From positions 1 to 47,702 of IMG/VR virus record IMGVR_UViG_3300022707_000188: DNA of 47,702 nucleotides. One strand, written 5' to 3'. This document shows, one piece after another, positions 3,764-43,841 of this stretch. The DNA is from a virus. The stretch's first letter is position 1, and the number at the start of each line of letters is the position of its first letter. The notes beneath the pieces were generated by a model. It saw only the letters and a program-made list of their open reading frames with translations. It made no database searches and had not been told where the DNA came from. Made by a program: the position numbers and the translations under genes.

Positions 3764-3903
3764 TGAGTATCAGAGGAAAACGTAAAAGGAATAATTCAAG
3801 CGGAACCAGTGTGAAAGGAATCAAGACGTTTTGGGTTTGGAACAATAATAGGCTTCGAAGGCTACAGAAAAATGAAGACAGTAATAGTTCTAATCCATCT
3901 TAA
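3763..3903 (+). CDS. Small basic protein, 46 aa
   Basis: Arg/Lys- and Asn/Ser-rich peptide starting MSIRGKRKRNN, without a recognised fold. Support comes from the TAATG overlap with the gene before and the 32-base overlap with the gene after, in a region with no intergenic space. It might bind nucleic acid, which is inference from charge only. Confidence 0.5.
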   Translation: MSIRGKRKRNNSSGTSVKGIKTFWVWNNNRLRRLQKNEDSNSSNPS

Positions 3904-4051
3904 CGCAACGATGGAGGTGTTTGATTTTCTTTCTACGCTATGCAGGAAGTATCCAAACTTTCAGTACCAGACCATATCTAATCACATGAATGAAAAAGGA
4001 GCCTACCGGAAGGACGGTATCCGGATTGAAAGAAAGAGAGTTATTAAATGA
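3872..4051 (+). CDS. Small protein, 59 aa
   Basis: Starts MKTVIVLIHLNATMEV and ends in a basic segment (RIERKRVIK). Residues 15-50 have the look of a small helix-turn-helix-like unit, with a recognition-like stretch around TISNHMNEKGAYRKDG, but this is weak. Its stop overlaps the ATG of the following glycosyltransferase (ATGA), which supports it as real. Confidence 0.55.
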   Translation: MKTVIVLIHLNATMEVFDFLSTLCRKYPNFQYQTISNHMNEKGAYRKDGIRIERKRVIK

Positions 4052-4719
4052 AGTTCACCTTATTACATCCAAGCCGGGGCCGAGTCGAACAGGCATACAG
4101 CACTCTTGATAAGTGGATGTTGATGTCATCAGGGAATCATAAGATTGAACACATCCTATCGATTGACAGGGACGATCCTGAAAAGAACAAGTACCTAAGA
4201 AAGTTCGAGCACAAGCATCCAGGCTTGGATAAGTCTACTAGGATGGAGGGGGATAACAAGTCAGTAGTCGAGGCAACCAACAGGGCAGCGAAGTGGGCAA
4301 AGGGTGAGATTCTAATTTACCTGTCAGACGATTTTGATTGTCCGTACCATTGGGACGAATTGATTCTTGAAAAACTAAAAGCAAACGGCAACGTTCATCT
4401 GTGGCTTTTGAAAGTGGATGATTGTCTACAGAGGTTCCACGCTGAGGTTTTGACTATTCCGATAATGAGTCTTGGACTTTATCAGGAGCTTGAATACTTC
4501 TGGCATCCGGACTACAAATCTATGTGGGTGGATGTGGATCTTTACCACACGGTCTACAATGTTGGGTATATGATCATGGCTCCGGAATTAAAGTTCGAAC
4601 ACAAGCACTACTCCAACGGTAAAGCTTCTCATGACGAAACCTACAAACGTTCTGATAAGAATTGGGATCAGGGGCTTGAAACATATAACCGCCGCAAGGC
4701 AGAAAACTTTCCATTATGA
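4048..4719 (+). CDS. Glycosyltransferase, GT-A fold
   Basis: Likely transfers a sugar from a nucleotide donor to a glycan or protein acceptor in the cytoplasm. The N-terminal strand FTLLHPSRGR, an NKSVVEATNRAAKWAKGE helix and the following strand ILIYLSDDFD (metal-binding DDFD at 94-97) form the usual family 2-like nucleotide-binding half. The 223-residue length fits a catalytic domain with no membrane anchor. It is the first gene of the glycan cassette and overlaps both neighbours by ATGA. Donor and acceptor cannot be read from sequence. Confidence 0.8.
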   Translation: MKFTLLHPSRGRVEQAYSTLDKWMLMSSGNHKIEHILSIDRDDPEKNKYLRKFEHKHPGLDKSTRMEGDNKSVVEATNRAAKWAKGEILIYLSDDFDCPYHWDELILEKLKANGNVHLWLLKVDDCLQRFHAEVLTIPIMSLGLYQELEYFWHPDYKSMWVDVDLYHTVYNVGYMIMAPELKFEHKHYSNGKASHDETYKRSDKNWDQGLETYNRRKAENFPL

Positions 4720-4799
4720 AAGATTATTTAGGCCCACCAAAACCAAAAAGAGATGTGACCGAGGGATCTGTAATCCCTCCAACAATAATTGATTTATGA
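4716..4799 (+). CDS. 27-aa Pro-rich microprotein
   Basis: MKDYLGPPKPKRDVTEGSVI and seven more residues. The reading frame fits exactly between two ATGA overlaps: its ATG overlaps the upstream stop and its stop overlaps the downstream ATG. That arrangement is its main support. It may be a translated coupler that carries ribosomes to the next gene, or a real small protein. No function is recognised. Confidence 0.45.
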   Translation: MKDYLGPPKPKRDVTEGSVIPPTIIDL

Positions 4800-4978
4800 A
4801 CAAAGAAACTAGAGTATGGGCAACGGGAGTTCTCTTCTGTGCGCTCTCATTATTTGAAGCAACGATAGTTATTCAGAACATCAAGTCAGGGATGTTTGAG
4901 TGGTATGATATGTTGCTGGTGTTGCTGGCTGTGTTCTGTGGGATTGTGGGTTACCGACAAATTCAAAAGACAACATGA
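4796..4978 (+). CDS. Small membrane protein, two TM helices
   Basis: The 60 residues hold two hydrophobic helices, about 8-27 (ATGVLFCALSLFEATIVI) and 38-53 (DMLLVLLAVFCGIVGY), separated by a short polar turn, with a basic C-terminus. It sits in the inner membrane by prediction. It overlaps neighbours by ATGA on both sides. Its place in a glycan cassette would suit a partner of a membrane-linked glycosyl transfer step, but a holin-like or superinfection-exclusion role is equally open. Confidence 0.65.
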   Translation: MNKETRVWATGVLFCALSLFEATIVIQNIKSGMFEWYDMLLVLLAVFCGIVGYRQIQKTT

Positions 4979-5283
4979 GTCAATTAGCTTTAGATGGAAT
5001 GCAAGACGGGGCGTTGCCAGATGGAACCGTACTGAAACATGGGGACATCATTCATTATACGATTGGCCCACATACGGGAATAACCAGAGTTGTTTTCAGT
5101 GATGGCAAACTGAGGATGCTAAAAAACTTTATGTACGGAGATGGGTACCCGATTGATAACTTCATTGGTCAAGCTAGCTATAACTGTATAACTAAGATGT
5201 CATTAACCGATCTGTATAAGTTCTGTAAGAAAAACAAATGGCCCACAGGAGAATACATTTCTAAATTTTCTAAACCAATATGA
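4975..5283 (+). CDS. Hypothetical protein, 102 aa
   Basis: A soluble protein whose first 60 residues look like a small beta-barrel (PDGTVLKHGDIIHYTIG followed by TRVVFSDGKLRML), the C-terminus being Lys-rich. I do not recognise a family. It is coupled by ATGA to the membrane protein before and the glycosyltransferase after. Confidence 0.7.
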   Translation: MSQLALDGMQDGALPDGTVLKHGDIIHYTIGPHTGITRVVFSDGKLRMLKNFMYGDGYPIDNFIGQASYNCITKMSLTDLYKFCKKNKWPTGEYISKFSKPI

Positions 5284-5882
5284 AGCTATCGATACTAATA
5301 CCAACCCTTTATAACAGAAGGGTTCAGATGAAAAAGTTGTGGGATGAATTAGACAGGCAGTGTGTTGAGGCTGGCGTAGCTGATCAGGTTCAGATTGTTA
5401 TCCTTCAGGACAACGGTGAGCGAACGGTTGGGGATAAGCGGAACGAATGTCTACAGAAGTCAAGTGGAGAGTACGTTGCTTTCTTTGATGATGATGATTG
5501 GCCTTCAGATATTTATATCAAGTGTGTAATGGAAGGGATTAGTATTGGAGGGGATTGTGTTTCACTTCGAGGCGTTATGACAACTGATGGAGAAAACCCT
5601 GAGATATTTGAACACTCGATTAGCTACAAGGAATGGAGAACGTTCGATAACGCTATGGTTGATGAGGTTAAGTATGAGCGATACCCCAACCACTTAAACC
5701 CAATCAAGTCCGAGATAGCTAAACAATTTAGATTTCCTGATAAAGATTTTGGAGAGGACCATGACTGGTCTACTCAAATTTTTAAGTCAAGACTATTAAG
5801 AGTTGAGGGTGGCGGAAGTGGAGCGCCTGATTTTATTGAAAACCCCATCATGTATTATTACCGTTGTAAATCAAAGAAATGA
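5280..5882 (+). CDS. Glycosyltransferase family 2
   Basis: GT-A transferase, 200 residues. The start MKLSILIPTLYNRR is the classic first strand and loop of family 2, followed by DNGERTVGDKRNECLQKSSG and the metal-binding FFDDDDWP (68-75), in which the DXD motif is plain. The C-terminal part carries an acidic GEDHDWS segment at about 160-166, consistent with the catalytic base region. No membrane segment is seen, so it is soluble or peripheral. It is coupled at both ends by ATGA overlaps. Confidence 0.88.
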   Translation: MKLSILIPTLYNRRVQMKKLWDELDRQCVEAGVADQVQIVILQDNGERTVGDKRNECLQKSSGEYVAFFDDDDWPSDIYIKCVMEGISIGGDCVSLRGVMTTDGENPEIFEHSISYKEWRTFDNAMVDEVKYERYPNHLNPIKSEIAKQFRFPDKDFGEDHDWSTQIFKSRLLRVEGGGSGAPDFIENPIMYYYRCKSKK

Positions 5883-6184
5883 TAATAACAATAGTCTTCA
5901 TAAGTATTTGGATTACGCTAGGGATTTGCAACATCTTCATTTATAAAGAGGCGATTAACGCGGAGGCAGAAGAAAATTCGTGGATGTTTAATCCATCATT
6001 TACTAAGCGGTTTGTTATTGTAATGCTCATGTTGCTTAGCCCATATTGTTTTGTAGTGGGGATAAGGAGTTTGGTTAGGGAATATCTACTGTTAAAAAAA
6101 GTAAATAAACTGTTGAATGATATTTGCGAAAAAGAAGGTATTGATCTCGATAAAATAAAAAGGGAAATAGAAGAAAAGAAATGA
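5879..6184 (+). CDS. Membrane protein, two TM helices, charged tail
   Basis: The first helix (residues 2-22, IITIVFISIWITLGICNIFIY) acts as an uncleaved anchor; the second lies at about 45-65 (RFVIVMLMLLSPYCFVVGI). The last 35 residues are highly charged and probably cytoplasmic helix. It is coupled to two glycosyltransferase genes by ATGA overlaps, so it may tether a transferase or take part in lipid-linked glycan handling. That is inference; no family is recognised. Confidence 0.68.
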   Translation: MIITIVFISIWITLGICNIFIYKEAINAEAEENSWMFNPSFTKRFVIVMLMLLSPYCFVVGIRSLVREYLLLKKVNKLLNDICEKEGIDLDKIKREIEEKK

Positions 6185-7044
6185 CAGCAGAAGAAAAGAA
6201 AGAACAGGGCCTAGCCTACAAGCGTGTAATAGCTTTCGCCTTGTTCGGCTACGGAACCACAGTTGAATCAGGCTTTGGCTTCATCGACTATATGCACGGG
6301 GTACTGATTAACGTGAGGCTTCAAAGGATGGTCTACCCTGATTGGATTATCAGACTGCACACAGACCAAGCGACCTATGATGGGTTCAAGGATTTGTTTG
6401 ACCGTCTACCAATCGAAGTGGTTATATGTGAGGCAGCTCCGATGACAAAGGCAATGCTCTGGCGATTGATGCCTTGCTATGATCCAGATGTTGAGTACAC
6501 TATTTGCAGGGACTTAGACAGCCCTTTAACTTATCGAGAAGCACAGGCGGTTGAGGTATTCATTAGGGAAGAACAATCGGCACACGCGATCACTGACAGC
6601 GACAGCCACACCATTGAAATGATGGGAGGGATGATTGGGTTCTGGAAATATTTTAAAGACTATACCAAAACTACCGAGTGGGATCAGTTGTTCATTGGGG
6701 CTCAGGAAGATTTCACAAGGAAAGGAACTGATCAGTGGTTCTTGCTTCGAAGGGTTTATCCTTGCTTTGCCCAACACGGAACTGACAGTATAGTTCAGCA
6801 CTACCTTGATGGAATGAGTAAGACGTTCCTACGGCACTGGTACAATTATATAGAGGACGTTGAACTGGAAGGAGTGCCGGTCGAGTATAAAGAAACCAAT
6901 GACACCTGTGGGCATATAGGTGCAGCCGGTTACTACGTTCCGGTTGTGAGGCAACTGTTCAAAAAGCATAAGGATATATTTACTGACTTGGAGGAAATCG
7001 AAAAGGATTACCCAATCATAGCATGGTGGCACAACGAGATATGA
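6181..7044 (+). CDS. Glycosyltransferase-like protein
   Basis: At 287 residues this is one of the larger transferases of the cassette. After a short charged lead, VIAFALFGYG begins the Rossmann-like half; YTICRDLDSPLTYRE (106-120) has the RDxD metal site (D111, D113), and TDQWFLLRRV near 190 resembles the acceptor-side motif of capsule-modifying transferases. No membrane helix. Its ATG overlaps the preceding stop and its stop overlaps the next ATG. Substrate unknown. Confidence 0.78.
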   Translation: MTAEEKKEQGLAYKRVIAFALFGYGTTVESGFGFIDYMHGVLINVRLQRMVYPDWIIRLHTDQATYDGFKDLFDRLPIEVVICEAAPMTKAMLWRLMPCYDPDVEYTICRDLDSPLTYREAQAVEVFIREEQSAHAITDSDSHTIEMMGGMIGFWKYFKDYTKTTEWDQLFIGAQEDFTRKGTDQWFLLRRVYPCFAQHGTDSIVQHYLDGMSKTFLRHWYNYIEDVELEGVPVEYKETNDTCGHIGAAGYYVPVVRQLFKKHKDIFTDLEEIEKDYPIIAWWHNEI

Positions 7045-7268
7045 GTAAAGTGAAATTAAAAATATATACAGGATGGGAGATTCGTCAGACTGATCTGAGG
7101 GATTGCTCAATTTGCAATGATCAAATCTTTTCAGGTATGTATTGCCTTTATACGCAAATCACAAACGCTGCTGAACTCAGGATAAATGGCTCAAGAAATT
7201 ATAGTTCTAATATTACTATATGCTCTACTTGCAAAGAGCAATCAGAAATAACAGCACATGAGATTTAG
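7041..7268 (+). CDS. Small zinc-ribbon-like protein
   Basis: The start is set at the ATG that overlaps the upstream stop; a longer in-frame start exists at 7023 but would overlap further. The 75 residues carry two Cys pairs, CSICNDQI and CSTCKEQ, separated by about 40 residues, a layout expected for a zinc ribbon. No further family identity. It overlaps the next gene by 11 bases. Confidence 0.65.
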   Translation: MSKVKLKIYTGWEIRQTDLRDCSICNDQIFSGMYCLYTQITNAAELRINGSRNYSSNITICSTCKEQSEITAHEI

Positions 7269-7821
7269 GTTTGACGACATAAGTATAAACTCTGACATGA
7301 ACTTGGTTCAGAAGATGACCAACCTGATATACAATCACTTCCCGGACTGTCAGATAATTTACGGAGTATCACCATTAGTTCACGACATGAGCGCATTCAA
7401 CGACAAGAACAGTCAGCGCATATTCCCTCAGATTCTAAACGCAATGTCAGACCCTCTACTTCACTTCTTGGTTGATAAGGCAGGTGTTCCGGAAATAGGT
7501 GGTGGAGCTACATTAGCAGGACATGGATTGGTTCATTTGGATCACAGGCTAATGGGTAGGCAAGCGCAGACTATGAGCATCCTTATAAGCTGTTCACTGG
7601 TCAAGGCTTCAGTGTTCATCCCTCCCTTCAATAAGTGGAATAAGAAGACTGAAGAGATTTGCAATAAGAACGGTATTGAATTGATCAAGTTCGAAGATGG
7701 GTGGCTGTGCGCTGAGTACAATGAGTTTGACCCGAAGCATGAACTTTGGTATATTCACGCCAGAGAATTTACTTACGAAAAATTTAAGACATGGCTAACA
7801 AAACAAGATTCACAAAACTAG
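7258..7821 (+). CDS. Polysaccharide deacetylase-like protein
   Basis: Begins MRFRFDDISI, resembling the NodB-type metal-binding FDD motif, and has GHGLVHLDHRLM (88-99), in which H89, H93 and H96 could supply metal ligands. Such enzymes remove N-acetyl groups from sugar polymers or precursors. At 187 residues it is shorter than a complete NodB domain (about 200-220) and similar to divergent deacetylase-like proteins in polysaccharide clusters. The remaining motifs are not obvious, so activity is uncertain, but fold and context agree. Confidence 0.6.
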   Translation: MRFRFDDISINSDMNLVQKMTNLIYNHFPDCQIIYGVSPLVHDMSAFNDKNSQRIFPQILNAMSDPLLHFLVDKAGVPEIGGGATLAGHGLVHLDHRLMGRQAQTMSILISCSLVKASVFIPPFNKWNKKTEEICNKNGIELIKFEDGWLCAEYNEFDPKHELWYIHAREFTYEKFKTWLTKQDSQN

Positions 7822-7967
7822 TTAGAATCCTTCAGAGTATATGTGTTGAGATTCATCCGACCATATACTTGTTTCCTCAACTTGGAAAGGAGGGGCATCA
7901 ACCTGTGGTCCTTATGAAATATAGGTTTTTATGTTTCACTTTAAAATGGTTAAGGTATGCTCGTTAG
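7791..7967 (+). CDS. Small basic protein, 58 aa
   Basis: Open frame from an ATG inside the end of the deacetylase-like gene to a TAG inside the start of the WbqC-like gene, filling what would otherwise be the only gap in this stretch. Basic and partly hydrophobic (VVLMKYRFLCFTLKWLRYAR at the C-terminus, perhaps a membrane-surface helix). No family recognised; it is plausible rather than certain. Confidence 0.42.
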   Translation: MANKTRFTKLVRILQSICVEIHPTIYLFPQLGKEGHQPVVLMKYRFLCFTLKWLRYAR

Positions 7968-8499
7968 CTGTCATCAACCAAACTTTATTCCATGGGCTCC
8001 ATACTTTCAGAAGATGGAACATTCAGATGTGTTTGTGATTATGAACCACTGTCAGTTTTCGAAGAACGGTTATCAGAATAGATTCAACGTTGGGGATAAG
8101 TGGTACACCATGAGCGTGAGTAGTAAAACAGAATTGATAACTGAGAAACAATATTTGAATCCGGCAGCAGATTGGATCAAGATAGTAACCGCCTTTCCAA
8201 AACTCAGGAGGCTCGACCGGTGCATTAAGAAATCACTCTGTGAAACCAACGGACGTATCATTAGGTCACTGGCTGAGGCTGCTGGAATTAAGACTAGGAT
8301 AGTTGAGGACTACCCAACCGAGTTGACAGGAACGGAAAGGCTTGTTGATATCTGTAAGCATTACGGAGCGACTAAGTATCTGTCAGGCATTAGCGGAATG
8401 AATTACATCAACGCTGATTTATTTGCAAGAAAAGGTATCGAGGTTATTTTCCAGGATGAAAGTAAGATGACGAAAAAACCATTAGTAGAAATGATATGA
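7957..8499 (+). CDS. WbqC-family protein
   Basis: The start MLVSCHQPNFIPWAPYFQKM matches the family signature (xxHQPNYLPWxGYFxK), and the second half has TKYLSGISGMNYIN followed by KGIEVIF, also typical. WbqC-like proteins occur in O-antigen and capsule clusters and are thought to act on sugar or acyl groups; the reaction is not settled. At 180 residues it is slightly shorter than the usual 200-230. Its presence in a phage strengthens the reading of this region as a true glycan pathway rather than scattered transferases. Confidence 0.85.
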   Translation: MLVSCHQPNFIPWAPYFQKMEHSDVFVIMNHCQFSKNGYQNRFNVGDKWYTMSVSSKTELITEKQYLNPAADWIKIVTAFPKLRRLDRCIKKSLCETNGRIIRSLAEAAGIKTRIVEDYPTELTGTERLVDICKHYGATKYLSGISGMNYINADLFARKGIEVIFQDESKMTKKPLVEMI

Positions 8500-8690
8500 A
8501 TAAACAGTATAGAATAAGAGAGCGTTATGACGGATTTGTGCTGGAGCTTTTTAGAGAAGAACAAAGTTGTCCTAAAGGATATTCACCCAGTGGTAAAATA
8601 TCTGCTCATTGGGAATTTGTTGAGAGTTTTAAAAATCTTCAAAGCGCAGAAAAGCAGAGAGATTTAATTATTAATCCTGTATATCATTAA
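8496..8690 (+). CDS. Hypothetical protein, 64 aa
   Basis: Short charged protein starting MNKQYRIRERYDGFVLELFR and containing a W-E-F-V-E-S-F strand; it resembles the small beta-strand-rich proteins common in phage accessory regions. Its ATG overlaps the WbqC-like stop. No function is recognised. Confidence 0.65.
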   Translation: MNKQYRIRERYDGFVLELFREEQSCPKGYSPSGKISAHWEFVESFKNLQSAEKQRDLIINPVYH

Positions 8691-8698
8691 TACAAAAA

Positions 8699-9955
8699 AT
8701 GAAAGACGTAGCATTTTGTTCCTTCGCATTCGGCCCACTGTACGTAATGCAGCAGGAACGCCTAAGACAATCTATCCTCAAAATCTATCCAGAGGCTAAC
8801 ATTAGATTCTGGCACTGTGATGACGGGACTTCAGACAACGACCTTTCGAAAATGCCAAAGGGAGCAAAGAAGTTCAAGGACTCGATGTACGGATTCAAGG
8901 TTCATTGTGTAGGTGAGTGTTACGCTGAAGGGTTTAAGAAAATTATATTCCTTGATGCAGCAATGTTTTTAGATGGGAAGATTGATTCGGTTATGGAGCT
9001 AGCTTCAGAGATTGGAGTAGTAGTTGCTGTCGATCCAAGCCCACTTTACGACAGAGTTTCAGACAAGTGTTTGGATTGGTGTCAGGTTACAAGGGAATAT
9101 GTTAAAGGCGTAGAGCTAACTATTGTAGGGGGATCACTATACGTATTCGACTTCAATGTTGCTGTAACAGAAAAGCTTTTCACTACGTGGTACACGATGG
9201 AAGCAGAGGGTCTTTTTGGATCAGAGGAAGAAGCAGCACGCGGAGAAATTCAAGGACACAGATCAGATGAGGCTTGTATGTCATTGGCTTTGTACGAACA
9301 TTATTTAGAGCCGGTAGGATTCGATCAGGCCGGATACAGGAACTTAGGAAGTGGACAAGATGAGGGCAGTTCATTCGTATTCTGCAAACTTCACTTCAAA
9401 GGGATAGGGACTATCGAGGAACATTCATTCGATGAATCACTATTACCATTCAAAGCGAACATACTTGATTTAGGATGTAGAGGGTTTGTATTTACGGATG
9501 CGCTAAAGGAGTTGGAGCATAGTGTTTACTCCGTTGATATTGGGGAGGAAAATTCTGAAGGTCTTAAAAGGAAATACTTTAGGATAGGTATATCTCACGA
9601 AAACGGATGGTGTGGCGCAACCAAAGAAAGAGATCCGGACGCAACCAGCATGAAGGAAGGAAAGGACATGATGATGATGACTCTCGATAAGTTTAAAGAT
9701 CATGCTAACGTAGATCACTGGCATCTAATCAAAATGGACATAGAGGGCGCTGAGTACGAGATATTGAAACAGGCAACCCATCCTATAGCTGATCAGGTTT
9801 CAGTTGAATTCCACGCACACTGTGGGCAGACAAAGGAACAGTTGGATGAACTGCTTGATATGCTTGAGGAGTTCTACTATATTCACAACCGAGTATGGGA
9901 ACCGGCTCATAGTTTGAACGAGAATTTTTGGGATATTCTATTGATAGCAAAATGA
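8699..9955 (+). CDS. Glycosyltransferase-FkbM methyltransferase fusion
   Basis: The 418-residue protein has two domains. Residues 1-245 resemble a GT-A transferase: MKDVAFCSFAFGPLY, then a KIIFLDAAMFLDGKI strand at 81-95 where a DXD site would lie. Residues 253-418 are an FkbM-type SAM-dependent O-methyltransferase, with NILDLGCRG (254-262), VYSVDIG at 276-282 and KMDIEGAEYEIL near 343-354, the family hallmark. One polypeptide could add a sugar and then methylate it, or cap chain growth by methylation. It starts eight bases after the previous stop and overlaps the next gene by ATGA. Confidence 0.85.
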   Translation: MKDVAFCSFAFGPLYVMQQERLRQSILKIYPEANIRFWHCDDGTSDNDLSKMPKGAKKFKDSMYGFKVHCVGECYAEGFKKIIFLDAAMFLDGKIDSVMELASEIGVVVAVDPSPLYDRVSDKCLDWCQVTREYVKGVELTIVGGSLYVFDFNVAVTEKLFTTWYTMEAEGLFGSEEEAARGEIQGHRSDEACMSLALYEHYLEPVGFDQAGYRNLGSGQDEGSSFVFCKLHFKGIGTIEEHSFDESLLPFKANILDLGCRGFVFTDALKELEHSVYSVDIGEENSEGLKRKYFRIGISHENGWCGATKERDPDATSMKEGKDMMMMTLDKFKDHANVDHWHLIKMDIEGAEYEILKQATHPIADQVSVEFHAHCGQTKEQLDELLDMLEEFYYIHNRVWEPAHSLNENFWDILLIAK

Positions 9956-10422
9956 TTGTAGGAAACGGAGATATCGCCTCTATGCTGAACGACCGAGAGG
10001 GAGCTTTGTTCTTTGCATCAGGGGTTTCTAATTCAGGAGACGTACATAAATCAGAGTACACCAGAGAGTGGGACTTACTTCAGAATCAGCCAGATGATTT
10101 GTGTTGTTTTTATTTTTCAACAATTTCTATTTTCAATAAGATTTCAAATTACACGGCCCACAAAATACACATGGAGTTTGCTGTTAAGGCTCGATTCAGA
10201 AATTGCAATATCATCAGGATAGGCAATATTGATTGGGGCGACAACCCAAACACCTTCCTGAATTATCTTCGAAACAAAAAAGGTCCCGTCACAATCCGAG
10301 ACGAATACAAGTACATGATTTCAAAAGAACAATTACTTTTGCTGACAGACAATTTACCACTGACAGGGCAGAATGAGATTAACGTATTCGGGAGAATGGC
10401 AAAGGTTAAGGACTTGATATGA
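9952..10422 (+). CDS. NAD-epimerase/dehydratase-like, short
   Basis: The start is the ATG overlapping the upstream stop. The N-terminus MIVGNGDIASMLNDREG, followed by LFFASGVSNSGD, resembles the first strands of an extended short-chain dehydrogenase; CCFYFSTISIF, then YTAHKIHMEFAV, recalls the Ser/Tyr-xxx-Lys region (Y148-xxx-K in the family), here as YTAHK. At 156 residues it is about half a full epimerase, lacking most of the sugar-binding part, so it may be a trimmed enzyme or a partner protein. Confidence 0.6.
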   Translation: MIVGNGDIASMLNDREGALFFASGVSNSGDVHKSEYTREWDLLQNQPDDLCCFYFSTISIFNKISNYTAHKIHMEFAVKARFRNCNIIRIGNIDWGDNPNTFLNYLRNKKGPVTIRDEYKYMISKEQLLLLTDNLPLTGQNEINVFGRMAKVKDLI

Positions 10423-10928
10423 AGACATTGGATGAAATAGCTGATTGGGCTGCGAAAGAATATCCTGGCGATCTTTGTGAGATAGGAGCAGGAACCGGAC
10501 ACAACACGGTAAACCTTCTAGCCATTGCTCAGAAGTATGGACGGATGGTGAATGTTGTAGATCCGTTCGAAGAGGGTTGGGGTGAAATGCCAGAGAGTTA
10601 TGGAAGCCACTACACAAAGGAGAAGTTCATGAGCGCAGTTGAAGGAAGGCAGGATTATCTGAGATTGCTTCAGGCCAATTCATTAAGCATGGAAGCTGAA
10701 TTATTCTTAAAAGGGAAGCGCCTTTGCTTTGCGTTTGTAGATGGACTACAGTACAAGAACGCTGTTCTTAGCGACCTTCGTATAGTCAGTCACGCAGAAG
10801 TAATTGTAGTAGACGACATCAACCGAGACGGGGAACTGAGCCAAGTCCCTATGGCAGTTGAAGAGTACATAAAAGAAACGGGCAGGAGCCTACAAAAAAT
10901 AGATCGATGGGGAGTTTTGACAAAATAA
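10419..10928 (+). CDS. SAM-dependent methyltransferase (class I)
   Basis: The motif DLCEIGAGTGHN (18-29) is the SAM-binding loop, MVNVVDPFE the acidic second-strand end, and LCFAFVDGLQY and VIVVDDIN the later strands; the pattern matches the Methyltransf_24/CmcI-like group often found with polysaccharide and macrolide tailoring. At 169 residues it is a minimal single domain. It overlaps the gene before by ATGA and the gene after by 22 bases. Methyl acceptor unknown. Confidence 0.78.
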   Translation: MKTLDEIADWAAKEYPGDLCEIGAGTGHNTVNLLAIAQKYGRMVNVVDPFEEGWGEMPESYGSHYTKEKFMSAVEGRQDYLRLLQANSLSMEAELFLKGKRLCFAFVDGLQYKNAVLSDLRIVSHAEVIVVDDINRDGELSQVPMAVEEYIKETGRSLQKIDRWGVLTK

Positions 10929-11707
10929 TATTAAGCTGTAACGAAGACCCAACTTACATGAGTTTCTGGAAGCCGGTAGCGACAGCGTACAAAAAGATGT
11001 TTCCAGATGTTGAGGTTCATCTTGCGTTCCTGACTTACAGGGCTGAGGATGATCCTTTGGTGAAAGAGTTCCGAGAATACGGAGAGGTTACATTGTTTAA
11101 ACCAACGGCAGGGGTGCAGCAATTCGCACAGTCTAAGTTGATTCGATATGTACTGGCTTCTGAAATGGGATACGATGTATGCTACATTGATGACATCGAT
11201 CTGTTCCCTCTAAGTAAAAAGTTCATAACCGATAAGACAGATCAACGTCCTGAGTTTAAACTACTATGTGTGGGTGGTGAAGTGTACCACAACAACGGTT
11301 GTTATCCAGTTAGTCAAATGACATTCGAAGGTTGGATGTGGAAAAAGTTCATTAATCCAAAGGACTACGATTGGCCAAACCTGATTGAGTATTATGAAAG
11401 GCTGGACCCTGTAACTGTATTCGATCGCAGGGAAAACGTAAACATACCGATGGACTTTGCCAACGACAATTACTTTTCAGACGAACGATTACTTCGAAGA
11501 TTAATACATGACAATCCTGTTCCGGTTTTCGAACTACATAGAGGGTACGAAGCCGATAAGATTCTGGAAGTAACATTGGACCGAATGGATTGGCAAGTTA
11601 ATATCGAGAAGCTGAACAACGGAGAATACTTTAATGCTCATGGGCTTAGGCCGTATGATGTTGAGGAGTATCAGCCACTTGTTGACTACGTAAACTCGAC
11701 CTATTGA
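10907..11707 (+). CDS. Glycosyltransferase-like protein with DDxD motif
   Basis: 266 residues. The N-terminal half has FDKIILSCNED, a long helix KPVATAYKKMFPD and VEVHLAFLTY, and then YDVCYIDDIDLFPLSK, where DDID (95-98) is a GT8-like metal site. NNGCYPVSQMTF and ANDNYFSDERLL are plausible acceptor-side elements. The listed start overlaps the methyltransferase by 22 bases; a later internal start would remove conserved strand residues, so it is preferred. Coupled to the next gene through a TTGA overlap. Confidence 0.75.
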   Translation: MGSFDKIILSCNEDPTYMSFWKPVATAYKKMFPDVEVHLAFLTYRAEDDPLVKEFREYGEVTLFKPTAGVQQFAQSKLIRYVLASEMGYDVCYIDDIDLFPLSKKFITDKTDQRPEFKLLCVGGEVYHNNGCYPVSQMTFEGWMWKKFINPKDYDWPNLIEYYERLDPVTVFDRRENVNIPMDFANDNYFSDERLLRRLIHDNPVPVFELHRGYEADKILEVTLDRMDWQVNIEKLNNGEYFNAHGLRPYDVEEYQPLVDYVNSTY

Positions 11708-12465
11708 AACTAGCAGCAATCTATAATGTGTGGGATGGTGATGAGCTGCTTGAGGCATCCATCAAAACAATACAGGACCACGTTGATATAGTTATTCTAG
11801 TTCTCCAGAGTGTATCTAATTATGGTGAATCCCACACTCCGATAATCCCATTGCACATTCATAACACGGACTATCACATGATCCACTACATTCCGATAGG
11901 CGTAACAAACCCACATAATAATCCGGGTCAGGATGAGCGCAACAAAAGAAACATGGGGCTAGATAAAGCCAGAGAGTTAGGGGCTACCCACTTCCTTCAC
12001 ATGGACTGTGACGAGCTATATCATTATTTCGGTGAAATGAAAACAGAGTTCTTAGAAAAAGAATGTAACGGTTCGGTTGCTCAGATGTATACGTATTTCA
12101 AAAAACCAACCCTTCGACTTCAATTTCCTGACAACTACTATGTCCCCTTCATTCATAAGCTAGATGTGTATACTCAATCGGGAGGCCCACAAACATACCC
12201 GTTCTACGTAGACCCCACTAGAAAGATTAACACCACGGATGTCGAATTGATTAGCTCATTCAAGATGCACCACTTCAGTTGGGTGCGAAAAGACATAGGC
12301 AGAAAGATCAGGAACTCAACGGCTAAGAACGGGATTGAGAGAACAAACATTCTTGAGATATACAACGACCCTGAGACGGGAGCAGGAACTTACATCGATC
12401 CTTTATATAGGCAGGAGCTAATCGAAGTTCCAGATCAATTCAACCTATCAAGTATATTCGAATAA
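11704..12465 (+). CDS. Glycosyltransferase-like protein, TTG start
   Basis: The start is read as TTG because it overlaps the upstream stop (TTGA) and because the first strand KLAAIYNVWDGDELLEASI of a family 2-like transferase begins immediately. FLHMDCDELYHYF (98-110) carries the DXD site (D101, D103), and SSFKMHHFSWVRKD near 197-210 resembles the acceptor-domain histidine region. 253 residues, soluble. It is the last transferase of the cassette before the NUMOD4-sigma gene. Confidence 0.76.
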   Translation: MKLAAIYNVWDGDELLEASIKTIQDHVDIVILVLQSVSNYGESHTPIIPLHIHNTDYHMIHYIPIGVTNPHNNPGQDERNKRNMGLDKARELGATHFLHMDCDELYHYFGEMKTEFLEKECNGSVAQMYTYFKKPTLRLQFPDNYYVPFIHKLDVYTQSGGPQTYPFYVDPTRKINTTDVELISSFKMHHFSWVRKDIGRKIRNSTAKNGIERTNILEIYNDPETGAGTYIDPLYRQELIEVPDQFNLSSIFE

Positions 12466-13157
12466 TGGAAGAGTGGAAAGAAATAGAGGGCTTCGAAGGG
12501 CTTTATAAAGTATCCAACCAAGGGTATATTTATAGCTATGTATCCAAGAAAACGATCACTGGATATGTGAACAACATGGGGTGGAAATGGGTTGATTTGA
12601 AAAAGAACGGAGAGAGCAAATACTTAATGGTTCATAAATTAGTGGCTCAACACTTTGTTCCAAACCCAAATAATTATTCAGGTGTAAGAACTAAAAAAGG
12701 AAAGACTAATTGCCATTATAAAAACCTAGAATGGTATTGCAACGCTCAAGATAATAAAGCCCCTAGACACGTTCTGATAGAACATTATAAGAACATTGAG
12801 CAGGGGGAATGGTGGCCGCTTCAGAAGATGCTCTATAAGTTCTTTATTACTCAGGATAGCTCACACATCGAATACATTTTTAAACGAGCTAACAAAGGTT
12901 GGTATGGGTTTGTTTTGAAAATCACTCATGACGAACACGCAGCTCAGGATATTTTACAGGATTGCTACGAGATGTTTCTAGACGCTATAAACGAAGGAAG
13001 GTTTAGGATAGATCGATGTTATATAGACTATGCCCCCGACACATACATCATGGCTATAATCAAAAACCAAGCGTGTAATTGGAAGCGCGATAGATTTAAA
13101 AGCTCACCATTAATTGATGAATATTTTTATGAAGGAGACTTTGCACAATACGATTGA
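12465..13157 (+). CDS. NUMOD4/HNH-like domain fused to sigma-70 region 2-like domain
   Basis: Residues 1-40 match the NUMOD4 motif of homing endonucleases (EEWKEIEGFEGLYKVSNQGY), then HKLVAQHFVPNP and CHYKNLEWYCNAQDN correspond to the flanks of an HNH unit, but the catalytic N-H-I-D-G core is absent. The C-terminal part (about 140-222) reads as sigma-70 region 2: FVLKITHDEHAAQDILQDCY, then TYIMAIIKNQACNWKRDRFK, which in sigma factors binds core polymerase and the -10 element. No region 4 follows. A DNA-reading head on a polymerase-binding domain could act as a promoter regulator; the gene lies just before the late tail operon. Activity is inference. Confidence 0.65.
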   Translation: MEEWKEIEGFEGLYKVSNQGYIYSYVSKKTITGYVNNMGWKWVDLKKNGESKYLMVHKLVAQHFVPNPNNYSGVRTKKGKTNCHYKNLEWYCNAQDNKAPRHVLIEHYKNIEQGEWWPLQKMLYKFFITQDSSHIEYIFKRANKGWYGFVLKITHDEHAAQDILQDCYEMFLDAINEGRFRIDRCYIDYAPDTYIMAIIKNQACNWKRDRFKSSPLIDEYFYEGDFAQYD

Positions 13158-13719: not shown

Positions 13720-13750
13720 AGAGGCTCCCAAATTAGGGGGTCTCTTTTTT
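13720..13750 (+). terminator. Intrinsic terminator, second in tandem
   Basis: AGAGGCTCCC (13720-13729) pairs with GGGGGTCTCT (13736-13745), ten pairs with two G-U, then five T. It ends at the stop of the convergent minus-strand glycosyltransferase gene, so it insulates that gene from plus-strand read-through; its reverse reading has a poor U tract. Confidence 0.75.
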
Positions 13751-14426
13751 AACCCAAAGTATTAATCATCTTTGAATAGAACTCGAAAGATTCAGGGTCC
13801 ATGGCTTCTTTGAGAAATGCTAAATCCTGATCATCATGATCATACCTCTCCAGCTTGTTCGTGTGGAGCTGACCACCAACCATCCCCTGTCCATGTTTAA
13901 TCCCTATCGAAATCATCTCGGTTGGCTTAATAGATATCCTTCTCCACTTCATTCGTTTAGCAACAGTAGCCCAAAGCCAAGAGTCAGTATAAGGATTGAT
14001 GTCGTTCCCCCAATCAAGTTCCATATCCGGAAGTATCATGGTGTTCATTGCTGACGCTCTACGGATATGAACCATCAGAAGATGCTTCTTTAAACGTAGG
14101 TTATAATAGATCGTTTCGTTGGTTCCGAATAGATGAGGCTTGCCGTATCTGAACCACTCATGTAGCATATACTCAATGTAAGTGGGGGCGTACCAATCAT
14201 CATTCTCAATAAAGAATATACAGTCGAATCCTTTACCCATGAGATTCTGATAGCCGGTTCTATACCTCAGCGTAATATCACAATCTTCATTGATGGCGTC
14301 GAAATCAACCAGCTCTATATGGTCAGGTTTTCTAAATTGACAGTCCATCATTCGCAGACAATTCTCTAAAAACTCAGGTCGATCTCCCCTGTCCGGGATA
14401 ATGATTGCTACTTTAAAATTGTTCAT
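13749..14426 (-). CDS. Glycosyltransferase family 2-like, isolated on minus strand
   Basis: GT-A transferase of 225 residues. The start MNNFKVAIIIPDRGDR is a typical first strand, and CIFFIENDDWYAP (69-81) holds the DXD site (D76, D77). It is separated from the main glycan cassette and read in the opposite direction from a promoter shared in design with the ribbon-helix-helix gene near 27.9 kb. The ATG lies four bases after a TAAGTTTG box, so the mRNA is probably almost leaderless. It may act late, for example on virion glycans, since its promoter region is paired with the tail operon. That is inference. Confidence 0.82.
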   Translation of the reverse strand: MNNFKVAIIIPDRGDRPEFLENCLRMMDCQFRKPDHIELVDFDAINEDCDITLRYRTGYQNLMGKGFDCIFFIENDDWYAPTYIEYMLHEWFRYGKPHLFGTNETIYYNLRLKKHLLMVHIRRASAMNTMILPDMELDWGNDINPYTDSWLWATVAKRMKWRRISIKPTEMISIGIKHGQGMVGGQLHTNKLERYDHDDQDLAFLKEAMDPESFEFYSKMINTLG

Positions 14427-14530: not shown

Positions 14531-16054
14531 ATGGCCAGCGATGCAGTAGGTTCAGAAGTAGTTTCAACGGTTGTTGGCTACAAAATAACAAAAGGACAGT
14601 TCAATGAAACCTCTCCAAACCTTCCACAACGGGTTGACATTTTCGGAGAAGCCAACGAAGCAAATCAAACAGGCTTAGTTACCGCGGCAGTTCAAATAAC
14701 CACAGCGAAAAAGGCTGGTGAAGATTACGGATTTGGTTCACCTATTCACATGTCGGCAAGGATTCTATTCCCTGTTAGTGGTGATGGAATCGGAGGCATC
14801 CCTGTATTTGTTAGGGCTCAGGCAGAAGCGTCCGGAGCATCAGCGAAACTTTGGGAGATTAATCCTACGGGAGTTGCAACAGGAAACGGAACTCATACTA
14901 TTATAATCGCAGGGCGTGAAGGAATTGATGGGGATCGATATGACATCAACATTGAAACCGGTGATGATGCCGCTGCTGTTTCAGGTAAAATAGAAACCGC
15001 AGTAAACTTAATTATCTCAAGCCCGGTACTTGCGAACGACACCACCTATAGTACAATCCTTACTTCGAAATGGAAAGGTCTGACAGCAAATGACATTGTT
15101 GTTTCAGTTGATGTTAACGACAATGCGCTTGGGCTTACTTACGATGTTGAGGATGTTGCGGACGGAGCTGCGACACCGAGTATTTCTCAGGCATTACTAG
15201 ACCTTGGAAACGATTGGGCTACAATCATCCTTAATACTTACGGAACTGTTGAATCAATCATGGATTCACTGGAAGCTACAAATGGTATTCCAGACCCTAT
15301 TTCACCAACCGGAAGATTTACAGGAACCATAATGAAGCCTTTCATTGCTTTAACTGGTTCGACTGATGATGACCCTTCGCTTATTACCGACACCAGAAAA
15401 GAGGATGTTACGATTGCAATTTGTCCGGCACCATTATCACTAGGGCTTCCATTAGAAGCGGCAGCAAATGTATGTCGTTTATTCGCCAGACAATCACAAG
15501 ACAATCCACACGGAGATATTATAAATCAGTCTTATCCTGATATGCCAATACCGGCAGACGATGATATTGGTTTAATGGCACTCTTTATAAACAGAGATGC
15601 TATTGTTAAGAAGGGATCTTCTACGGTTGATCTGAACGTAGGCCGATATAGAATAAAAGATTTTGTAACAACGTATCACCCTGACGGAGAAATTCCACCA
15701 CAGTTCAGATATGCTAGAAACCTAATGCTTGATTTGAATGTATTCTTTGGATACTTCTTATTGGAAGAGACGTTCTTGGTTGGGAAAACACTAGCTGGTA
15801 ATGATGATCAGATTGTAGTCGCTGGAGTGATCAAGCCTAAGACATGGCAAGGGATTGTACACCAATACGCAAACGATCTAGCATCCAGGGCTCTGATTAC
15901 TGATGCCGCATTTATGCAGGACTCATTATTAGTAGTAATTTCTAGTTCAAATCCTGACAGATTAGAAACATCTTTTAGATATAAACGAACAGCCATTGGA
16001 CGAATCTCAGCCACTACAGCAGAGGCAGGATTTAGCTTCGGTGGATCATCATAA
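14531..16054 (+). CDS. Tail sheath protein (Mu gpL-like)
   Basis: Forms the contractile outer tube. The 507-residue length fits Mu gpL (495). The N-terminus YKITKGQFNETSPNLPQRV, then IFGEANEANQ, resembles the Mu/FluMu sheath entry segment, the middle is a beta-rich insertion domain, and the conserved C-terminal domain runs from about 320 (VCRLFARQSQDNPHGD, later FVTTYHPDGEIPPQFRYARN and VFFGYFLLEE) to the end. Followed by the tube gene after 12 bases. It establishes the phage as a myovirus. Confidence 0.9.
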   Translation: MASDAVGSEVVSTVVGYKITKGQFNETSPNLPQRVDIFGEANEANQTGLVTAAVQITTAKKAGEDYGFGSPIHMSARILFPVSGDGIGGIPVFVRAQAEASGASAKLWEINPTGVATGNGTHTIIIAGREGIDGDRYDINIETGDDAAAVSGKIETAVNLIISSPVLANDTTYSTILTSKWKGLTANDIVVSVDVNDNALGLTYDVEDVADGAATPSISQALLDLGNDWATIILNTYGTVESIMDSLEATNGIPDPISPTGRFTGTIMKPFIALTGSTDDDPSLITDTRKEDVTIAICPAPLSLGLPLEAAANVCRLFARQSQDNPHGDIINQSYPDMPIPADDDIGLMALFINRDAIVKKGSSTVDLNVGRYRIKDFVTTYHPDGEIPPQFRYARNLMLDLNVFFGYFLLEETFLVGKTLAGNDDQIVVAGVIKPKTWQGIVHQYANDLASRALITDAAFMQDSLLVVISSSNPDRLETSFRYKRTAIGRISATTAEAGFSFGGSS

Positions 16055-31910: not shown

Positions 31911-33458
31911 ATGGCAAGTAAGATTGTAGGAGTCATATCACCACGTAATTTCGAGTTAATCAGGGACCGGATTGCTGCTATTCTGGCAGATGAGTTATTC
32001 CAACAATTCTTAATGGATTATGAGGACAGTTTTGAGCTTCCTGATATATGGATAGATAGGGTTATTCCTTTTGATTCAAAGAGCCAGTTTCCAGCCGTTA
32101 ATGTAGGGCTTGCAAAAGGGACATGGATTCTTGAGAGTCAGATAAGCCAAACCGGAACATGGCAATACTTCATTGATGTTTATGTAGGGGCTAAATCCTC
32201 TGACAATTTACCAGGAGATCAAAAGGCTGCTCAGAAGCTCCACAGATTAATGGGTATTATTCAGGCCATTTTAATGGACCATCGATACGTGACCCTTGAC
32301 TTTGATACTCCGGGCATCTATAATCGAAGCTTTGCAGATGTTGATATAGCGGATCCGGAGCAGAGCATGAATAAGTTTAACGCTATTTTGGCGAGGCTTC
32401 AGTTTAATGTGACTGTTTCGGATGATGTTGAATTCGCTACAGGAATCCCTTTGGCAGACTTTACCGCCTCAGTTAAGCTATCAGACACTTCGAAAGGATA
32501 TGTGTACGCAGGGGCCTCTATATTCGGTCCTGAGCCTGAATGTCCTCCTGGTACTTTGACGGTGAACAACAACTTCTTTGACGACATACCATCAGGTGAG
32601 ACATTAAATATAATCTTAATAGACACTAACGGGAATGCGGTTGGGGCGATTTACGATGATCAGATCATTGTTCCTGCATCCGGGGGAGATCCTGTTGGTA
32701 CAACGATGAATGGGGCTGTTTTGGTTGATACTCCGGATGGAGAGGATAAAGCCTTTACAATTAGACGTGCAGATGATAGCGCGGTTGTTGTAACGACTAT
32801 TGAGGATACTGCTAATTCATTTATTGGAGAAGTGCCAGATATACTCTCGGGAATAAGCACGCAAGTGGGGACTACCGGGCAAGAAAACGCCTCTGTTACA
32901 GGGGATGATGGAGATAGGTTTCTAAATGGAGATTATGCCTCAAAACAAGTGGCTGATTTAACCGATGTTTATACTTTGGTTCTTGCTAATCCGGATTTCC
33001 CCAACCATAATAAAAGATTAACAGGAGACACGGGAGGGTATCAGGATGAACCTACAGGTAATTTTTTCGATAAAGATAACGTAGCGACTACAAAAGCTTT
33101 AGCCTTTCCGAATGATATTATGAGAGATTACGCTTGGAGACGTAGGTGGTTTTTACTTAGATCGGGGGCAAGGACTTGGACGAATGCTGTTGCGCTTGCT
33201 CAAACAGATGTAAGGGGTGGAGAAGGAAATTGGTTTTTACCCAATAAATTTGAGTATGAAATGCTCTCAAGCAACAGCACAGACAGCCCTACCCATATAG
33301 ATTCAAGATTATTTAATTGGAGCCTGCTAAATATGTGGTCTTCAACTACTGATAAAAATCTTACAGCATCGGCATATAGATTTGGAGCAAATCAGGATGT
33401 TTGGCTGGTTCAACCAAAAACACAAACGAATGCAGGAGCTTACGTAAAATTATTCTAA
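31911..33458 (+). CDS. Tail-terminator-like domain fused to DUF1566 lectin-like domain
   Basis: 515 residues. Residues 1-175 read like a tail-terminator or Mu gp37-type domain (FELIRDRIAAILADELFQQF, QTGTWQYFIDVYVGAKSSD). Residues 210-330 are beta-rich spacer. Residues 385-515 match the DUF1566/FISUMP C-type-lectin-like fold: RTWTNAVALAQTDVRGGEGN, WFLPNKFEYEMLSS, LLNMWSSTTDKN. In Bacteroidota such domains occur on surface and adhesion proteins. A structural protein carrying a lectin-like head at the head-tail joint is unusual; it may instead be a receptor-binding protein that kept an anchor domain. Confidence 0.62.
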   Translation: MASKIVGVISPRNFELIRDRIAAILADELFQQFLMDYEDSFELPDIWIDRVIPFDSKSQFPAVNVGLAKGTWILESQISQTGTWQYFIDVYVGAKSSDNLPGDQKAAQKLHRLMGIIQAILMDHRYVTLDFDTPGIYNRSFADVDIADPEQSMNKFNAILARLQFNVTVSDDVEFATGIPLADFTASVKLSDTSKGYVYAGASIFGPEPECPPGTLTVNNNFFDDIPSGETLNIILIDTNGNAVGAIYDDQIIVPASGGDPVGTTMNGAVLVDTPDGEDKAFTIRRADDSAVVVTTIEDTANSFIGEVPDILSGISTQVGTTGQENASVTGDDGDRFLNGDYASKQVADLTDVYTLVLANPDFPNHNKRLTGDTGGYQDEPTGNFFDKDNVATTKALAFPNDIMRDYAWRRRWFLLRSGARTWTNAVALAQTDVRGGEGNWFLPNKFEYEMLSSNSTDSPTHIDSRLFNWSLLNMWSSTTDKNLTASAYRFGANQDVWLVQPKTQTNAGAYVKLF

Positions 33459-42202: not shown

Positions 42203-42233
42203 TTATAAACAAATGCGTACAAAAATGCGAACA

Positions 42234-42728
42234 ATGTCAAAAGAAATTTGGAAAGACGTGTCCGGTTACGAGGGTTATTATCAAGCTAGTAATTTGGGCA
42301 GAATAAAATCACTAAAAAGGAAAAACAAAAAAGGAAAAATATTAAAGCCATGGATTAGTTGTCATGGATATAAATGTGTTAGGCTGTCTAAAAATGGACA
42401 ACTGAAGTCTTTTTCTGTACACCAATTGATAGCGATTGCTTTTTTAGGACACAAAAGATGCGGCCTTAAAAGAGTGATAGATCATATTAACAATATTAAA
42501 CACGACAATAGGTTAGAGAATTTACAAATTGTTTCCCATAGATACAATTGTTCAAAGGACCAGAAAGGAACCTCTAAGTATGTAGGGGCTAGTTGGTGTT
42601 CAAAAAGAAGAATGTGGGCTTCAGCCATTCAGTTGGACAGGAAATCAAAACATTTAGGATATTATGATTCGGAGGAACAGGCGCACGAAGCGTATAACGA
42701 GGCTTTAATCGCGCATACAGAAAAATGA
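42234..42728 (+). CDS. NUMOD4-HNH-AP2 homing endonuclease
   Basis: The start is set at the ATG that begins MSKEIWKDVSGYEGYYQASN, the NUMOD4 motif; ATG 42213 would add seven residues. HNH core: VHQLIAIAFLGHKR, RVIDHINNIKHDNRLENLQI. The C-terminal GTSKYVGASWCSKRRMWASA to HLGYYDSEEQAHEAYNEAL is an AP2 DNA-binding domain. Complete and probably active nicking or cutting enzyme that spreads itself. It lies free-standing, not inside an intron that I can see. Confidence 0.88.
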   Translation: MSKEIWKDVSGYEGYYQASNLGRIKSLKRKNKKGKILKPWISCHGYKCVRLSKNGQLKSFSVHQLIAIAFLGHKRCGLKRVIDHINNIKHDNRLENLQIVSHRYNCSKDQKGTSKYVGASWCSKRRMWASAIQLDRKSKHLGYYDSEEQAHEAYNEALIAHTEK

Positions 42729-43257: not shown

Positions 43258-43841
43258 AAACAATTTTAATATTAGATATCGAGACAACAGGATTTCTCAA
43301 TAATGGAGGAAAGATCGTTGAGATCGGAATAGTAGAGCTAAACCTTGAATTTGGTGAAATGAAAATCATCTACGATAAGATGTGCCATGAGCGCCCAATA
43401 ACCAAAAAGGAGGTTGAAAAGGCTTGGATCATTGAAAACTCAGATATGACCGTTGAGGATGTCCAGAACTCACAACAACTAAAAGAGCAGCAAGAGGAAA
43501 TTCAGGAAATAATCAACCGCTATCCACTTGGAGCAACAGCCTTCAACAATGAGTTTGACTTTGGGTTCCTAGAAGATCGAGGATTTACATTCCCTAAGAA
43601 ACTAGACTGCCCAATGAAGCTATCGACCAATATCTGTAAACTACCAAACAAGAACAATAAACCGGGGTATAAATGGCCGAAGGTGGAGGAAGCGCATGAG
43701 TTCTTCTTTGGAGAGGTTGGGTATGTGGAGGCTCATCGTGGTGCTGACGATGCCTTACATGAAGCGGAAATCGTTTTGGAGCTGTTTAAAAGAGGTATAT
43801 TCAAGGTTGAGGGTGTGGAATTGGCTGATTGCTCGTTATGA
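43254..43841 (+). CDS. DnaQ-like 3'-5' exonuclease
   Basis: 195 residues. Motif I ILDIETTGF (D8, E10), motif II GATAFNNEFDFGFLED (N and D near 98-102), and motif III EAHRGADDALHEA (H and D near 160-166) define the DEDDh group. It may proofread for the host polymerase, trim recombination ends or degrade RNA/DNA of the host. A free-standing exonuclease without a phage polymerase is common. Followed by a homing endonuclease gene starting inside its stop. Confidence 0.87.
   Translation: MKTILILDIETTGFLNNGGKIVEIGIVELNLEFGEMKIIYDKMCHERPITKKEVEKAWIIENSDMTVEDVQNSQQLKEQQEEIQEIINRYPLGATAFNNEFDFGFLEDRGFTFPKKLDCPMKLSTNICKLPNKNNKPGYKWPKVEEAHEFFFGEVGYVEAHRGADDALHEAEIVLELFKRGIFKVEGVELADCSL

Follow-up and report, generated by a model that had tools for sequence, protein, structure and literature searches.

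A putative glycan-assembly cassette of an uncultured phage and its recurrent deacetylase–WbqC gene pair

Organization of the cassette

The window considered here is the whole stretch of 47,702 nucleotides of the IMG/VR record IMGVR_UViG_3300022707_000188, which originates from an uncultured phage, probably of Bacteroidota. According to the reading of its ORFs, positions 4048-12465, between the terminase and the tail sheath genes, carry about 15 compact genes (B to P) that all point in one direction (plus strand) and cover about 8.4 kb. Eight of the gene junctions are exact 4-nt stop/start overlaps (ATGA or TTGA), and a ninth overlap of this size joins the upstream ORF 3872-4051 to the start at 4048. 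The remaining overlapping junctions measure 11 or 22 nt. A sequence-only reading of this DNA had described a block for glycan assembly and tailoring, between terminase and late genes, with genes nearly all joined by stop/start overlaps; at the coordinates that it gave, the ORFs are open and overlapping. The cassette is real. It goes beyond chance since homologous genes, in the order R-B-E-G-I-J-N-O-P, recur in independent contigs.

Several small genes are interspersed in the block. Those at 4796-4978 (C) and 5879-6184 (F) are each predicted to encode two transmembrane (TM) segments and correspond to the two small membrane proteins announced earlier. The three others, all unassigned, are D (4975-5283), which matches no family over cut-off, the Cys-rich ORF H (7023-7268) and K (8496-8690).

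Glycosyltransferase-like and tailoring genes

The transferase-like genes differ in the evidence that they bring. E (5280-5882) belongs to glycosyltransferase family 2, as it matches Glycos_transf_2 (PF00535) over cut-off (E-value 1.7e-6; 28.5 bits for a cut-off of 23.3) as well as phrog_14775 (5e-32). B (4048-4719), whose homologs are found in many IMG/VR contigs, is GT2-like by phrog_14945 (1.7e-13), its Pfam GT2 match lying under the cut-off (1.5e-4). G (6181-7044; GT-A-like, RDxDS motif), O (10907-11707; DDID motif), P (11704-12465; GT2-like, DCDE motif) and the N-terminal half of L have no match of their own to any glycosyltransferase family in Pfam or PHROG, hhalign does not link them to GT2, and PDB sequence searches with G, O and P returned noise only. 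Their assignment relies on DxD-type motifs read directly, which suggest that they are probably glycosyltransferases. Thus, among the "at least six" transferases initially proposed, B and E are supported by profiles while these four match no such family. Nevertheless, one member of the G family also scores as Glycos_transf_2 (3.6e-10) and another one as a PHROG glycosyltransferase. This family is very widespread in phage cassettes (290 confirmed IMG/VR stretches). O is usually located near J (54 O-J pairs in the contigs carrying J, 30 of them without any intervening gene), and homologs of P at 44-49% close the same cassette in other contigs. Outside the block, R (13749-14426, minus strand), divergent from the tail sheath gene, encodes another GT2-like protein (hhalign to the E family, 85%) and occupies the same place in the two relatives L137 and L146.

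The tailoring genes include the two methyltransferase domains that had been announced. One of them, FkbM (PF05050, 1.1e-10), forms the C-terminal part of L (8699-9955), where it is fused to the GT-like half, the counterparts in L137 and L146 being two separate genes; the other one, of the Methyltransf_24 type (PF13578, 3.5e-6), is encoded by N (10419-10928). Between them, M (9952-10422, ATG start at 9952) encodes the epimerase-like protein of the earlier description. It has 156 aa, and its only profile match is RmlD at 0.24. Instead of a truncated epimerase, M is a full-length mini-SDR (epimerase/dehydratase-like), with full-length homologs, 52-65% identical, in both relatives, and it retains a GNGDIA motif and YxxxK.

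No protein with at least four predicted TM segments is encoded in the window or by 993 related cassette genes, and the flippase and polymerase (Wzx/Wzy) that characterize O-antigen and capsule loci are absent from both. This agrees with the initial observation that no nucleotide-sugar synthase, flippase or polymerase is visible.

A predicted CE4 deacetylase next to a WbqC gene

The deacetylase-like and WbqC-family proteins of the sequence-only reading were both recognized, as I and J. Gene I (7258-7821) encodes a protein of 187 aa, from a virus-enriched family, that is predicted to be a CE4 (NodB) N-deacetylase with intact metal and catalytic residues. Its AlphaFold model (pLDDT 95.4) displays a NodB-type fold over the whole chain and resembles the CE4 structures 7bkf (VIA Z 13.0, rmsd 3.4 over 148 residues) and 2cc0 (Foldseek 1.6e-5). 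The catalytic Asp, the metal D-H-H triad and the C-terminal catalytic His are all present: D6, D7, H89 and H93 are invariant in 41/41 family members and H167 in 40/41, members being 27-61% identical. The fold and the DD / HxxxH / C-terminal H pattern are those of CE4 deacetylases (PF01522/DUF2334, ArnD, PgdA). However, gene I differs in its length (187 aa), and few members of its family reach their profiles (DUF2334, 5/41; PF01522, 1/41, E 0.01); a PDB sequence search gave noise only. Scans with short peptide patterns, whose viral and cellular counts are lower bounds, found the family in about 50 viral contigs, in no INPHARED phage, in no plasmid and in one of 84,980 cellular species, where it also lies beside WbqC.

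J (7957-8499) is a clear member of the WbqC family (PF08889, 1.9e-30; 106.8 bits for a curated cut-off of 21.3), to our knowledge a family without assigned function. Its model (pLDDT 94.3) resembles ATP-using HUP folds. Phosphopantetheine adenylyltransferase (PPAT), TyrRS and cytidylyltransferases match it with VIA Z of about 8 (7.7-8.4, a middling range), and the PDB folds listed at this level are HUP enzymes using ATP or CTP; by Foldseek the match in PDB is weak (best E 0.07). Besides WbqC-like proteins, its named viral matches include cytidylyltransferases, NMN adenylyltransferase and Arg-tRNA ligase. J has no HIGH/HxGH-type nucleotide motif, the family consensus being IHQPNFxPW.

Association of deacetylases with WbqC across phages

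Since the number of IMG/VR contigs with related blocks is well above 100, a phage cassette of several glycan genes is no novelty in itself, and the idea that this one is rare is not supported, hundreds of IMG/VR stretches encoding the G family. The new point, absent from the earlier description, is the deacetylase–WbqC pair inside the cassette, which travels together across many unrelated phages. Among 59 non-redundant contigs carrying J, 41 carry gene I, 12 a PIG-L deacetylase, whose fold is unrelated to that of I, and three a WbmS-type deacetylase; I and PIG-L never coexist. The three remaining contigs comprise one of 4.5 kb, one where J is near the contig end and one where gene I is cut at the edge. 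The deacetylase is always on the same strand as J, and it is adjacent to J in 17/22 cases for PIG-L and 5/5 for WbmS, and within three genes of it in 46/48 for I. An independent scan based on G led to the same picture, since J and a deacetylase were both present in 8 and both lacking in 50 of the 58 non-redundant contigs (Fisher 5e-10). Over 50 whole phage records that share G and lack J, Pfam detects no WbqC, no PIG-L and no CE4 over cut-off.

The PIG-L partners (cluster 8) possess the HPDD/HTDD zinc motif and the distal His, with H10, D12, D13, H114 and H117 invariant in 11 members. The pairing is also found in isolates of low overall similarity. For example, a PIG-L gene directly precedes J in the Vibrio phage PG28, and likewise in V-YDF132 and VH2_2019, while gp92 (PIG-L) and gp95 (WbqC) represent the pair in the Arthrobacter phage DanielleIgnace. 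I and J may form a functional unit that is conserved across diverse phages and whose deacetylase may be of the CE4, PIG-L or WbmS type. In the scan based on G, DegT aminotransferases are not associated with WbqC (p=1), and they were rejected as its general partner in phages. In contrast, several bacterial WbqC genes are near DegT genes, and in 9/10 plasmid loci a gene for amine formation lies at most about 6 kb away, a raw count with no background control.

Relatives and orientation of the block

At the DNA level, nothing in INPHARED comes close to the cassette, and scanning IMG/VR with the single sequences of TerL and of L gave no match. In relatives, the cassette is transcribed opposite to the late genes, hence a transcript shared with virion genes is no conserved trait, which counts against the reading favoured below. 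The B-P block, inverted relative to two close relatives, is bracketed by an exact 16-bp inverted repeat (3830-3845 and 12655-12670), whose right arm lies within an HNH-like gene (12465-13157). A programmed invertible switch was considered and is kept as a lead only, as neither a resolvase nor an integrase is matched in the record, which may be incomplete, and one repeat arm encodes the FVPNPN motif of the HNH-like gene.

Proposed function and alternatives

A modular phage cassette for glycan assembly is the reading that we favour, with roughly even confidence. B, E and probably G, the N-terminal half of L, O, P and R would use nucleotide sugars of the host to assemble a short glycan in the cytoplasm. 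In the order of action that we infer, the product of gene I would then strip an amino sugar of its N-acetyl group, J would add another acyl or aminoacyl group to the freed amine, and N and the C-terminal half of L would methylate the glycan, whose likeliest acceptor would be a virion protein rather than a host glycan. Glycosylated mycobacteriophage virions are comparable in that the phage encodes glycosyltransferases, the glycans being there on virion proteins (Freeman et al. 2023, as cited in PMC12619734); the present system, with its presumed virion acceptor, differs by its many transferases with a deacetylase, WbqC and methyltransferases.

The best reading of I and J is by analogy with MshB/MshC. 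MshB, like BshB, deacetylates a glucosamine conjugate to which Cys is then added by MshC or, in the second case, by the putative ligase BshC, a protein with a Rossmann core to which MshC is related (PMC4360819). The PIG-L partners of phage WbqC belong to the MshB/BshB family, whereas the partner in this window is a CE4 protein; a PDB sequence search with the J profile gave noise only, without relation to MshC or BshC. A more precise proposal, which we consider unlikely and offer tentatively, is that WbqC is a HUP-fold ATP-dependent amide ligase acting on the sugar amine freed by the deacetylase, the phage unit with its three interchangeable deacetylase types putting a non-acetyl N-acyl sugar on virions. 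Against our favoured reading count the weak fold match of J, the lack of a canonical HxGH motif, and the bacterial WbqC genes in plasmid loci, which often adjoin aminotransferases and not deacetylases. WbqC could also be another HUP-type enzyme, for example a nucleotidyltransferase that activates the sugar after its deacetylation, or a transferase of N-formyl or N-acyl groups that works by a different mechanism. This possibility, still on the unlikely side, concerns the WbqC step alone and is compatible with the cassette reading and with the other alternatives; the folds nearest to J are nucleotidyltransferases, but J lacks HxGH and depends strictly on a deacetylase. The pairing gives the orphan WbqC family a testable role, open to a two-protein biochemical test with the cultured phages DanielleIgnace and PG28.

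Rather unlikely in our view is remodelling of a host surface glycan during infection, with residues added or tailored on host lipid-linked intermediates so as to mask a receptor or exclude superinfecting phages. Surface-polysaccharide loci of bacteria, as seen in plasmid neighbourhoods, likewise contain WbqC, FkbM methyltransferases and deacetylases, and the fold of I matches ArnD, deacetylases being known to tailor LPS precursors; yet none of the 993 cassette genes encodes a flippase, a polymerase or a polytopic membrane protein of another kind, and a slow surface change benefits a lytic phage less. The serotype conversion suggested earlier found no support in a lysogenic form: the record, which may be incomplete, has no integrase match (PF00589 or PF00239), so that a lasting lysogenic change of the surface is unlikely.

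Hypermodification of phage DNA is improbable. Hypermodification of DNA with a variety of glycans by virus-encoded glycosyltransferases has been reported (Pyle et al. 2024, as cited in PMC12619734), but the record, possibly incomplete, has no Tet_JBP or thymidylate-synthase-type match for a base hydroxymethylase, and no base-modification partner was noticed beside the cassette.

The large LPS gene clusters of T4-like cyanophages (P-SSM2, S-SSM7, S-SM2) are likewise multi-gene, co-conserved between phages and of unproven function, the choice between functional genes and "stuffer DNA" having been left open (PMC3037559). They differ from the present case in host and phage, the cassette here being compact and placed between terminase and tail sheath, with a gene I found in no INPHARED isolate. 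That the cassette genes are such functionless stuffer is highly improbable, as the active-site residues of I persist despite wide divergence, gene order is conserved, and the strict pairing of WbqC with a deacetylase that can be replaced non-homologously argues for a selected function of this phage glycan cluster.

Genetic setting of the cassette

The window is an IMG/VR virus record of 47,702 bases. Its terminase large subunit (TerL, 654-2699) is of the gpA type, its nearest relatives being those of Cellulophaga and Flavobacterium phages (about 36%), and the presence of a tail sheath (14531-16054) and a tape measure indicates that the phage is a myovirus. Between the TerL and sheath genes lies a compact, co-directional gene block, with 4-nt overlaps at eight junctions within 4048-12465. 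The sequence-only reading of this segment as a glycan cassette holds: the cassette is real, non-random and of a known broad kind. Pfam and PHROGs support glycosyltransferases for genes B (4048-4719) and E (5280-5882), WbqC (PF08889) for J (7957-8499, +), and methyltransferases for N (10419-10928) and the C-terminal half of L (8699-9955). These searches gave no accepted family match for I (7258-7821, +) on its own and none for G (6181-7044), O (10907-11707), P (11704-12465) or the N-terminal half of L. The interesting core of the cassette is a strictly coupled deacetylase-WbqC unit.

Gene I, a predicted CE4-type deacetylase

The model of gene I, built from an alignment of 41 proteins (the window and its phage relatives), has a pLDDT of 95.4, and VIA-align relates it to the CE4 family (7bkf, Z 13.0), the acetylxylan esterase 7fbw (Z 12.6) and ArnD (8t0j, Z 11.4). 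Asp6, Asp7, His89 and His93 are invariant in this alignment and His167 is found in 40 of the 41 proteins; together they form the CE4 residue set. Furthermore, five members of the family match DUF2334 (best 3.4e-10) and one matches Polysacc_deac_1 (1.2e-9). The model also resembles the turret protein of Haloferax tailed virus 1 (PDB 8qpg, Z 11.7).

The gene I family was found on 45 viral contigs in one scan (by short peptide patterns, so that counts are lower bounds), in no INPHARED phage and, in the plasmid search, in no plasmid. Among 84,980 species genomes it was found in one, on a Micrarchaeota MAG contig (L112), in whose last kilobase I overlaps a cut WbqC gene by 4 nt. The GC content changes from about 0.42 to 0.5-0.59 where this I-J pair starts (L112:6500-7435). 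The segment may be a chimera or a transfer.

Coupling of deacetylase and WbqC

After protein clustering of the fetched contigs and the window, J was present on 78 contigs, I on 51 and a PIG-L deacetylase on 22. J accompanies PIG-L in 22 of 22 cases and I in 48 of 51, and no contig of this set holds both I and PIG-L. Five divergent copies of J are directly followed in 3' by a putative WbmS-like deacetylase, so labelled from its RHDVD motif. When J contigs are made non-redundant at 90% identity of J, 59 remain, and 56 of these have a deacetylase. Of the three others, one is only 4.5 kb long, one has J close to a contig end and one has an I gene truncated at the contig edge.

Selection bias was tested by an independent scan using G. 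Among its 58 non-redundant contigs, 8 have J with a deacetylase, 50 have neither and none is discordant (Fisher 5e-10, a descriptive value because the contigs have common ancestry); DegT shows no association there. In 50 J-less records, searched over their full length with curated Pfam models, neither WbqC nor PIG-L nor CE4 scored above the cut-off. The pairing also occurs in cultured Vibrio and Arthrobacter phages.

Proposed role of WbqC

The J model (pLDDT 94.3) has no significant Foldseek match in the PDB. Its VIA list (Z 7.7-8.4) holds phosphopantetheine adenylyltransferase, Tyr-tRNA synthetases, cytidylyltransferases and ATP sulfurylase, and its named viral neighbours, below WbqC-like ones, include cytidylyltransferases, an NMN adenylyltransferase and Arg-tRNA ligase; all of these have HUP folds. 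As J has no HxGH motif, we do not claim HUP membership.

A full-text literature search returned no functional study of WbqC by title or abstract, subscription literature being outside its scope. Mycothiol synthesis uses the deacetylase MshB and then MshC, a Cys ligase; bacillithiol synthesis likewise uses BshB and then BshC, a putative ligase that has a Rossmann core and to which MshC is described as related (PMC4360819). By analogy, we infer that WbqC would act on the amine freed by the deacetylase and modify it. Bacterial plasmid neighbourhoods agree with this: an aminotransferase or PIG-L gene lies within about 6 kb of WbqC in 9 of 10 cases, a count without background control. A Mariluticola plasmid (L117:2462-6681) carries a pseudaminic-acid cluster with PIG-L and WbqC; the stretch shown has no annotated PseH acetyltransferase, for which WbqC may substitute. 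In a Virgibacillus plasmid (L119:2616-9216), WbqC is flanked by an NRPS gene on one side and by PIG-L and ATP-grasp genes on the other.

Rearrangement of the cassette

The window shares structural genes with two related phage contigs, L137 and L146 (sheath 58-64%, TerL 51-64%). Their cassettes occupy the same TerL-sheath site in the order R-B-E-G-(O-like)-L-M-N-like-P (in the window, M is 9952-10422 and R, outside 4048-12465, is 13749-14426, -), lack I and J and are opposed in direction to the late genes. Relative to them, the B-P block of the window is inverted and includes I-J. Other contigs share the order R-B-E-G-I-J-N-O-P, and the G family alone gave 290 confirmed IMG/VR stretches.

An exact 16-bp inverted repeat (arms 3830-3845 and 12655-12670) flanks the B-P block; the maximum in 300 flank shuffles was 15. 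The window also has two HNH-type homing endonuclease-like ORFs (42213-42728 and 43829-44374), and a distant relative (31%) of the latter lies within the L146 cassette (L146:9679-10167).

Acceptor of the glycan and other genes

No polytopic membrane protein was found among 993 cassette genes, and the record has no detected integrase or resolvase and no Tet/JBP or thymidylate-synthase-type enzyme. These absences favour, without proving it, a glycan that is finished in the cytoplasm and whose acceptor is a molecule of the phage or of the host, a virion protein being the first candidate.

Elsewhere, 12465-13157 encodes a NUMOD4/HNH-like N-terminus fused with a weakly sigma-70 region 2-like C-terminus. 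The structural-region protein encoded by 31911-33458, whose C-terminal domain resembles Lcl_C (6e-6, below the cut-off), is possibly a receptor-binding or variable protein. Near the window end, two ORFs (45024-46027, -), one weakly Peptidase_M15-like, could be a lysis pair.
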